From Spiroplasma sp. SV19 (GTDB lineage Bacteria > Bacillota_I > Bacilli_A > Mycoplasmatales > Mycoplasmataceae), in contig NZ_CP045455.1 in assembly GCF_030060925.1 (NCBI RefSeq), forward strand, positions 806,001-870,000: a DNA stretch of 64,000 nt. The letters are read 5' to 3'. The translations under genes and the position numbers were made by a program. The notes beneath the pieces were generated by a model that saw nothing but the letters and a program-made list of their open reading frames with translations, was not told where the DNA came from and did no database searches. Below, one piece after another: positions 34,770 through 38,149 of this stretch (position 1 is its first letter; every line of letters starts with the position of its first letter).

Positions 34770-36977
34770 TTAATTTCGTTTTGAAAATTGTTTTTGATTA
34801 GCATCCTTTTTAGTTGCTTTTTTAGCTGCTTTAATTTTTTTATCAGCAGTAACTTTATCAGAACGTGTTTTTAAAACAAATTGCTTCATTGAAATTGTTT
34901 CACCTGTACGTCTTTTATCAGCAATTTGTCAAAATCCGTACATAAAAGCAGTAATTAATGCTCCGATAGCCATAAATAAGAATGCTAACAATGTTCATTG
35001 TCAAGCACCAGCTCAACCATAAACACCAGTATCGCCATTCCCACGGCCTAAAGCCGATAAGAATCCAACAATTGGGCCCCCATGCCCAGCTAAGTCAGCA
35101 ATTCCTACTGCTCCAGCTAATCCACCAGCAATTGCTGACCCAACAATATTACTTGGAATAACACGTTTTGGATCATTTACTGCAAATGGAATAGCTCCTT
35201 CTGAGATTCCAATGCAGCCCATAAAGAATGCTGTTGAACCCATTGTTCGTTGTTCTTCGTTATAGAATGGTTTAAAGATTCATGTTGCAATTCCCATTCC
35301 CATTGGAGCAACCGGAATTGCAACTGCCATTGCCCCCATTGGGGTATAAATCTTTGAACCAATTAATCCCGTAGATGCTAAAAAAGCAACTTTATTAACT
35401 GGTCCTCCCATATCAAACCCAGCCATTGCTCCAATTAATAGACCAAAAGCTAACCCAATTGCGACATTAGAAGCATTTGAAATATTTCCTCATGTTTTTG
35501 AAATTCATTCTTGGAATTTTCCCATTACTCATCCAACTGTTGAACCAATTACGAACATCATAATCATTCCATAAACAAAACCAACAACAATTGGAATAAA
35601 GAAAATCGGCATTACTGGTTTTAAACCTTTTGGGACATTTCACGTATTAATTCATTTAACAGTATAACCAACAGCTAATCCAGCAGCAATTGCCCCGACA
35701 AATCCGGTTGGAGTATTAACTGCTTCAATCCCTGGTAAAGGATAAAAGTTAGCAGCATTATTCCCAATAAATGACACAACAATTGCTGGTGCAATTGCTG
35801 AACGACCAGCAATTGAATTAGCAATAAATGCTCCTAAAACAGGAATCATCAAAGTAAATGCTGAACCTCCCAGAATATTTAAATAATAGAAAAAATTCTT
35901 AGGATCAGTTAAAGGATCAGTGTAGAACAATTCGCCTCAATGTGCTGTTCCTCCTGTTGCGTCAGGAATTCAACCCATTCCCTTTGAAGAACCATGGAAG
36001 TTTTCATAATTAGGACCATAAATTGCTTTTGCTAATCCTAATGAAATGGCGATAAAAATCCCCCCCAAGATAACAATTGGCACCATATATGAAACCCCTG
36101 CCATCAAGTGCTTCATAACTCCAACTTTTTGGCCGCTACCATTGCTACCTTTTGTTGTAAATTCACCAACTGGTTCGGTTTTTCCCTCTTTTAAAGCAGT
36201 ATTAATAACTCCTTCAGGGTCTTTAATTGCTTTAGCAACAGGGCAAATATATACTTTTTTGCCACCAAATCTTGTCATATCAAGACCAATATCAGTTGCC
36301 GCAATAATTACTTCCGCACGTTTAATTTCTGCATCAGTAAAATCATTACGAACTCCTTCTGCTCCATGCGTTTCAACTTTAATGTCATATCCTAATTTCG
36401 GACCAGTTTGATTTAATTTGTCAGCAGCTAAGAAGGTGTGAGCCACCCCTGTTGCACAAGCTGTCATTGCTAAAATCAATGGTTTTTCACCTGTTGGCTT
36501 AGTTACTTTTTCAGAACTATTTTGATCAGCACCTGCTAACAAAGCAGCTTGAATCTTAGTTTTATTTGTTTCAATTTTCATTGCTTTTTTGAAATTTTCA
36601 TCCATTAATTTTCGCGCAACTTCACTTAAAATTCCTAAATGAATATCACCTGATTTAGCCTCCGGAATAATTAAGGCAATCGCAACTTTTGTTGGTTTTC
36701 CATCCATTGCTTTTCAATCAACAGAATCTTTGAAACGAATAAACAAAACTGCTTCTTTTTTAACTGCTTTAATCCGTGCATGTGGAATTGCAAAACCATC
36801 TTCAAAACCTGTCGAAGATTCTTTTTCACGAGCCTCAAAACCTTTAACAAGTTCGTTTGGGTCAGAAACATATCCTAATGTTTCAGCTAACTTCGCAAGT
36901 TCTAAGAATGCTTCTTCTTTAGTCTTTGCGGTTGAATCTAAAATGATATGTTTCTCATTAAAAATTTCATTATACAT
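34770..36977 (-). CDS. fruA: PTS fructose-type EIIABC
   Basis: 735 aa fusion in order A-B-C. EIIA (1-150): His66 in GFAIPHAR. EIIB (165-270): Cys174 in AMTACATGVAHTF. EIIC (from about 300) has the helices of the fructose/mannitol class with GFDMGGPVNKVAF and GISEGAIPFA. Imports fructose as fructose 1-phosphate, or the related mannose series. GGAAGGAG lies upstream of the ATG. Transcribed from a promoter with a T16 spacer, just downstream of manA. Confidence 0.96.
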
Positions 36978-37008
36978 ATTGTTTTTTCTCCTTCCATAAT
37001 CGACTTAC

Positions 37009-37036
37009 ATTTTACTAAAAAAAAAAAAAAAAGCAA
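37009..37036 (-). promoter_or_regulatory. fruA promoter with a 16-T spacer tract
   Basis: Minus strand: TTGCTT as -35, then T14 plus AG, a 16-base spacer, then TAAAAT as -10, about 32 bases before the fruA ATG. The homopolymer (37017-37032) lies almost wholly between the two boxes, so a change of one or two T would change spacing and promoter strength. Confidence 0.6.
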
Positions 37037-37088
37037 CGGAATCCTTAAAAAAATAGATTTTTTTAAATAAAATGGAATTTTTTTCTGT

Positions 37089-37128
37089 AAAAAAAAAAAA
37101 AAAAAAAACACCGTTTACGCTTAAACCG
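37089..37128 (-). terminator. manA terminator with a 20-T run
   Basis: A weak stem (GTTTA/TAAAC on either strand around ACGC-like loop) followed by 20 T on the minus strand, just after the manA stop. The stem is short; the T run (37089-37108) is the strongest signal. Confidence 0.55.
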
Positions 37129-37129
37129 T

Positions 37130-38038
37130 TTATTTCTTATAACTTAACAATGCTTTACCCTTGACAGTAACAGTGAGTCTCTGATTTAAATCAACAATAA
37201 TTGCTGATTCTCTCGCTGTAAGGTTTTCTGCCCCAATCATAATTTCTCCTTCAACAACTGTTACCTGTCCTCATTTTACTAATGATAAATCAAGTTCTTG
37301 TGTTTTTGTTAGTAAATGCAAAGTAAAATATTGATTATCAATTAAAATTCCTTCTATAATATGTTGCACTTGTTCATTTGAATCCGGAACTGTTGTTACA
37401 TCAAAACATTCTTGCAAATGTAAGGGACGAAAATTCCCATCTTTATCAGCACGATCAAAATCATAAAAGCGATATGTAACATCAGATGAACGTTGCAACT
37501 CAAAAACAGTTACCCCCTGTGTTATTGCATGGACTTTTCCTGGTGGAACATATAAGAAATCTCCTTTTTGCACTTTTACTTCTGTAAATAATTGCTGTCA
37601 TGCTTTTTGCTCAACCATTGCCATTAACTCAGTTTTTGTTTGTGCTTGATGGCCATAAATCATTTTAGCATTTGGGGGGCAATCAAGCACATATCAACAT
37701 TCTGGTTTCCCTAACATTTTATTATGCCTTAAACTATATTCATCATCAGGGTGCACTTGCACTGATAAATAATCATTAGCCGTAATAATTTTTGACAATA
37801 ATGGAAACTCGCTTTCTGTAGTTCCAAAATATTCGGGATGATTTTGATAAAAAGATTTTAAAGAAGTCCCTTGCTCTGGACCAGTAGCAATATAACTCAT
37901 TCCATTATCTAAAGCACTAATAACTCATGCTTCACCATATAAATCATTTGTTGGTAGTTGAAAACCAAAATCAGCCAGCTTGTGGCCACCCCATAATCGT
38001 TCAGAGAAAAAAGGGGTTACTTTAATTACTTTATACAT
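37130..38038 (-). CDS. manA: Mannose-6-phosphate isomerase
   Basis: 302 aa class I enzyme interconverting mannose and fructose 6-phosphates. Zinc ligands are visible in VQVHPDDEYS (Gln, His), GKPECWYVLD (Glu) and PPGKVHAI (His). Starts MYKVIKVTPFFSERLWGG. Next to the fructose-type PTS, it would feed imported mannose into glycolysis. Confidence 0.94.
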
Positions 38039-38149
38039 AAATGTCCTCCTCAGGCTTTCCATTTATATTTAACCATAAAAACTGAAAAAATAATATTATC
38101 TTATAAATTTATAGTAAGATATAAACAACTAGCAAAAAAGGAGTTTAGA

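Follow-up and report, generated by a model that had tools for sequence, protein, structure and literature searches.

Several surface-protein genes of the mollicutes are described as being switched at the level of transcription, through changes in the length of the spacer between the two promoter boxes. In Mycoplasma hyorhinis, where the spacer of the vlp promoters is a homopolymer, such switching has been demonstrated (Citti and Wise, 1995, as described in PMC10502178 and PMC2268961), and in M. arthritidis and M. mycoides spacer-length changes are described as switching transcription of the surface-protein genes maa2 and vmm, respectively (PMC2268961, PMC10502178, PMC3053259). A cautionary case is provided by the vpma genes of M. 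agalactiae, another mollicute in which a T tract lies directly upstream of the -10 box; in the account given in PMC2268961, the switch operates by site-specific recombination and the tract is reported to have no role in variation, which warns against inferring function from a tract alone.

The promoter described here lies in a window of 64 kb, the whole stretch of DNA that was analysed, corresponding to positions 806001-870000 of the 1,456,516-base chromosome of Spiroplasma sp. SV19 (G000). The sequence-only reading had placed TTGCTT and TAAAAT, separated by 16 bases, at 37009-37036, and these coordinates were confirmed exactly, on the minus strand. Read on the plus strand, the stretch consists of ATTTTA (37009-37014), CT, A16 (37017-37032) and GCAA (37033-37036), while the minus-strand order is TTGCTT, the 16-nt spacer, TAAAAT, GGAAGGAG and the ATG start codon (36977-36975). 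It had also been proposed that a T16 tract fills the spacer. The tract is indeed T16, but two of its T's form the end of the -35 hexamer, leaving a spacer of T14 followed by AG. As in the vlp-type systems, a simple repeat separates the -35 from the -10 box. Within the window, runs of A or T reach a length of 9 and then occur only at 16, 18 and 20, with none of 10-15; from the base composition of the window, and taking bases as independent, about 0.01 or fewer runs of at least 16 would be expected per 64 kb. TTGCTT is a weak -35 box, matching TTGACA at three of six positions, and for this reason the permease promoter is missing from a generic consensus promoter scan, which returned as many sites as shuffled sequences and was not used as evidence. 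Support for the promoter comes instead from relatives and from the genome-wide set of tracts. The palindrome upstream of the -35 box is possibly an operator for a sugar regulator or an upstream element (Table 1).

Table 1. Positions of the promoter elements, tracts and genes discussed in the text (window numbering unless a locus is given).
Feature	Position	Strand	Basis
-35 box TTGCTT	37031..37036	-	sequence; TTG kept in 4/5 aligned sequences (TTC in S. phoeniceum P40)
T16 homopolymer (A16 on + strand)	37017..37032	-	sequence; A/T run count
Spacer, 16 nt, T14 + AG	37015..37030	-	sequence; 16-17 in aligned relatives
-10 box TAAAAT	37009..37014	-	sequence; TAAACT in all four aligned relatives
Ribosome-binding site GGAAGGAG	36988..36995	-	sequence
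Palindrome TTAAAAAAATAGATTTTTTTAA, upstream of -35 box	37045..37066	.	sequence; outline kept in relatives
EIIABC permease, Fru family, 735 aa, probably mannose-type (manP-like)	34770..36977	-	domain match; manA linkage
T20 homopolymer just after manA; manA terminator place in some relatives	37089..37108	-	run count, position
manA, mannose-6-phosphate isomerase class I, directly upstream of permease	37130..38062	-	TIGR00218 over cut-off
Spiralin gene	L044:1611-2888	+	T19 promoter, predicted spacer 16
Spiralin gene	L047:1580-2275	+	T23 promoter, predicted spacer 21
N6-methylase + EcoRI-like endonuclease	L085:6416-7613	+	behind neighbouring T18, T20

By analogy, the anatomy of the Spiroplasma promoter is that of the vlp, maa2 and vmm spacer switches, as these are described in the sources cited above. 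The likeness to vlp consists of a homopolymer within a mollicute promoter spacer and of one kind of tract standing before many genes of a genome, although the vlp tracts are adenines whereas those studied here are thymines on the coding strand, and the vlp genes encode lipoproteins whereas the window gene encodes a sugar permease and the Spiroplasma set is scattered. Repeats of the vmm type likewise precede several lipoprotein genes of one genome, but they are TA dinucleotides rather than a T homopolymer. Switching has been demonstrated for vlp and for the surface proteins encoded by maa2 and vmm, whereas at the Spiroplasma permease promoter it is a prediction.

The permease gene had been named fruA and assigned to a fructose PTS, which the analysis does not support. 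A separate fruR-fruA-fruK operon, encoding a DeoR-type regulator, an EIIABC permease and a 1-phosphofructokinase, is located elsewhere (L169; G000:C1:1259401-1263315), and the window permease is 28% identical to the FruA of that operon. Linkage to fruK and a DeoR-type fruR was not found for the window permease, whose neighbour is manA, a gene that it follows here and in most relatives checked. Since the fructose operon lies elsewhere and the gene follows manA, mannose, perhaps with fructose, is the likelier substrate, and the permease is probably a mannose-type, or mannose and fructose, transporter. In Bacillus subtilis and Vibrio cholerae, manP and manA are described as sharing an operon; V. 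cholerae ManP is reported to transport both mannose and fructose, and a B. subtilis table lists manP in the fructose/mannitol family (PMC9392796, PMC6148471). The window permease resembles these systems in being a Fru-family PTS permease linked to mannose-6-phosphate isomerase, but its domain order is EIIA-EIIB-EIIC, whereas B. subtilis ManP is given as EIIBCA (PMC6148471), and, unlike in the ManP-ManA operons, the permease gene comes after manA and is served by a promoter of its own. The permease frame contains 13 TGA codons, which are read through. In L005, L006, L036, L008 and L009, manA ends 113-188 nt ahead of the permease; for G006 and G008, inspection by eye recognises manA sequence in that place, and L034 showed no manA end there. 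S. poulsonii has a gap of 1188 nt, or about 1.2 kb, between manA and the permease (L035:2812-4000), and its permease reading frame occurs twice and is split. Downstream of the separate fructose operon, a T34 tract lies after fruK and before an ABC-transporter ATPase gene (L087), its counterpart in the sister genome G010 being T17.

Among named relatives, S. poulsonii and S. phoeniceum share the permease. The promoter region was aligned for the window sequence, G010, G012 and two S. phoeniceum sequences (MAG and P40), the boxes being TTGCTT-16-TAAAAT in the window, TTGCTT-17-TAAACT in G010, TTGAGT-16-TAAACT in G012, TTGATT-16-TAAACT in the MAG and TTCAGT-16-TAAACT in P40. The claim of a homopolymer between the -35 and -10 boxes was thereby borne out, in that the boxes exactly flanking it are kept as a promoter in the aligned relatives; the homopolymer itself occurs in one of the five sequences, that of the window. 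By eye, G006 and G008 carry TTGTAA-16-TATAAT. In two more distant loci with 68% protein identity, L008 (G004) and L009 (G009), A16 and A15, respectively, lie between TTTAC(A) and (C)TATAAT, forming poly-A spacers of 16 and 14. Together with the poly-T of the window, these show a homopolymer in the spacer of the permease promoter in two lineages, though not on the same strand. The T16 tract is absent in the nearest relative and has no G010 partner among reciprocal-best tract pairs, and S. poulsonii has a different sequence ahead of the permease. A DNA search of a plasmid collection gave no match.

The larger finding is a class of about two dozen promoters with poly-T spacers in this Spiroplasma genome, mostly before surface lipoprotein genes. 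A search for runs of at least 13 T's gave 66 tracts in G000, with actual lengths of 15-36. Under a box test whose thresholds (a hexamer matching at five or more of six positions at offset -1 to +5; a gap of 0-2 nt between TTG and the tract) were set after these tracts had been inspected, a TATAAT-like hexamer directly follows 37 of the 66 (shuffled mean 10.6, maximum 20), TTG directly precedes 25 (mean 7.2, maximum 14) and both boxes are present at 23 (mean 1.1, maximum 5; 300 shuffles in each case), while the same tracts read in the opposite direction give 8, 7 and 1. In G010, also inspected before the test, the corresponding values among 44 tracts are 25, 21 and 18 (both boxes: 0.8 in shuffles, maximum 4), with 5, 4 and 1 in the opposite direction. 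The direction control is independent of the chosen offsets, as is a pattern search for TTGC followed by T13, which found 43 occurrences in the 14 genomes of the genus (13 in G000; present in 9 of the 14) and none of the reversed control. Across the order, this pattern is present in 54 of 198 genomes and its reversed form in one. Long T tracts occur in all 14 genus genomes, at 2 to 66 each. The promoter-type tracts of G000 are spread over 11 of 37 clusters, by single-linkage clustering that lumps many lipoprotein promoters, and are not one family; they are 16-25 long, with predicted spacers of 13-26. One or both boxes are lacking at 43 of the 66 tracts, which indicates that tracts grow outside promoters too, and the lengths of tracts without promoter boxes span a similar range. 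A terminator-like hairpin precedes 23 of the 66, and 13 of these 23 also have a -10-like box.

Several individual tracts deserve mention. L040 and L072 are paralogous genes with similar flanks; TTGC-T16 is present at L072, while at L040 a T24 replaces TTGC, perhaps because the tract has expanded into the -35 box. At L079, T18 is followed by a 24-aa frame, whereas in its G010 counterpart (L165) this promoter is followed by a frame of 286 aa; the SV19 copy seems to be broken early. In another family of the order, TTGC-T13 sites stand about 1.3-1.6 kb apart, five in G119:C1:451134-456968 and four in G149:C1:121580-125592, and from their sequence these arrays look like tandem switchable gene clusters.

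Spiralin is the best-known surface lipoprotein of Spiroplasma, and the genes behind tracts with both boxes include two spiralin genes, many genes for lipoproteins of about 480-550 aa and one for a propeller protein that contains a spiralin domain. Matched repeat stretches number three in one spiralin gene and one in the other. Tracts whose boxes are incomplete or of another kind stand before genes for ABC transporters and before an N6-methylase gene followed by an EcoRI-like endonuclease gene. In G006 and G008, TTGC-T17 stands before gene starts similar to this N6-methylase locus. According to a curated lipoprotein-signal model, a T tract lies at most 300 b upstream on the same strand in 16 of the 57 matches over the cut-off, 0.4 being expected by placement, and a tract in the opposite orientation in one of the 57; the figures for 28 weaker matches are six and zero. 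This count is preferred over that of a cruder lipoprotein regex, which gave 25 of the 66 tracts. The Mycoplasma-like arrangement suggested in the sequence-only reading thus recurs before many surface-lipoprotein genes of the genome; the window gene, an EIIABC permease, is not itself a surface lipoprotein gene, but many sibling tracts precede such genes.

Three other explanations of the tract have been weighed. That T16 is the U-tail of the manA transcription terminator is suggested by the many T tracts of the genome that come after hairpins and by the presence of another tract, T20, closer to manA. Nonetheless, it is T20 and not T16 that takes the terminator position, the fold immediately before T16 reaches only -2.4 kcal/mol and the promoter boxes around the site are kept in relatives, which makes a terminator role of T16 highly improbable. 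T20 is probably the manA terminator, judged by position alone, since its preceding hairpin is weak in the window and folds no better than shuffles (z -0.22). The tract could also belong to a static T-rich promoter, as a mere spacer or as bent or stiff DNA that tunes promoter strength, with no role in switching. The vpma tract is a precedent for this, the spacer of 16 equals that of relatives without the homopolymer and the promoter-type tracts of G010 have tight lengths of 17-18. On the other hand, the tract and spacer ranges among the promoter-type tracts of G000 are too wide for selection on strength alone, provided that the assembled lengths are right. A profile search for MutS_V found no match in any of the 14 genus genomes (a control search was positive in 11 of the 14), and a 2025 Spiroplasma preprint reports MutS, MutL and MutH as missing across the genus (PMC12408004). 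On this absence of MutS, the host lacks tract-stabilising mismatch repair, which is a permissive rather than a strictly defining feature of vlp-type promoters, and tracts as long as these should be unstable. A static promoter is considered unlikely.

Instability may equally be read as neutral slippage, in which intergenic T runs longer than about 9, in an AT-rich genome without mismatch repair, would grow to an equilibrium of about 17-20, those in spacers surviving since the genes are non-essential. The bimodal run lengths in the window agree with this, as do the similar lengths of tracts without boxes, the 23 tracts that follow terminator-like hairpins and the permease gene being broken in some relatives. 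However, the tight anchoring between TTG(C) and TATAAT, the concentration before lipoprotein genes and the ten G000-G010 pairs that are promoter-type in both genomes (counted from the pair table) exceed what neutral growth would produce, and a purely neutral account is considered unlikely; a neutral origin would, moreover, be compatible with a switching effect. Between the two genomes, 27 of 30 reciprocal-best tract pairs differ in length, but these differences prove little, because in G010 each of the 44 tracts measures 16-18, irrespective of context, against 15-36 in G000, and lengths therefore seem to depend on sequencing or assembly. In the preprint cited above, homopolymer indels are treated as probable assembly artefacts (PMC12408004).

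With moderate confidence, it is proposed from the sequence that the spacer T tract of the permease promoter is a slipping on/off switch. The spacer of a sigma-70-type promoter, serving a manA-linked Fru-family permease, would have been turned into a T homopolymer; replication slippage without MutS would then add or remove one or a few T's, and each change in length would shift the -35 box relative to the -10 box, so that transcription would go up, down or off in single cells. What the sequences show is the promoter anatomy, its conservation as a footprint in relatives, the class of similar tracts across the genome and the absence of MutS; that the permease tract slips, and that slippage alters transcription and sugar uptake, we infer. 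Since the assembled spacer of 16 is that of most relatives, the permease allele is predicted to be ON. More tentatively, independently slipping poly-T promoters might form a genome-wide layer of control over spiralin (two copies, predicted spacers 16 and 21), a large lipoprotein family and the mannose-type permease, and perhaps also over ABC transporters and an EcoRI-like restriction system. Clonal cells could then vary simultaneously in their surface, their defence and their diet, and the permease promoter would have acquired such a tract at least twice (poly-T here, poly-A elsewhere).

The spacer-switch mechanism is already known in mycoplasmas; by analogy, the addition here is a metabolic gene among the putative targets. 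A search of open-licence papers on Spiroplasma repeats, promoters and phase variation found no account of homopolymer promoters in Spiroplasma, which is weak evidence of novelty. If the proposal is correct, individual cells would differ at random in sugar uptake and in major surface proteins, as mycoplasmas do in their surface antigens, and the homopolymer length differences dismissed as likely artefacts (PMC12408004) may hold real, heritable switches.
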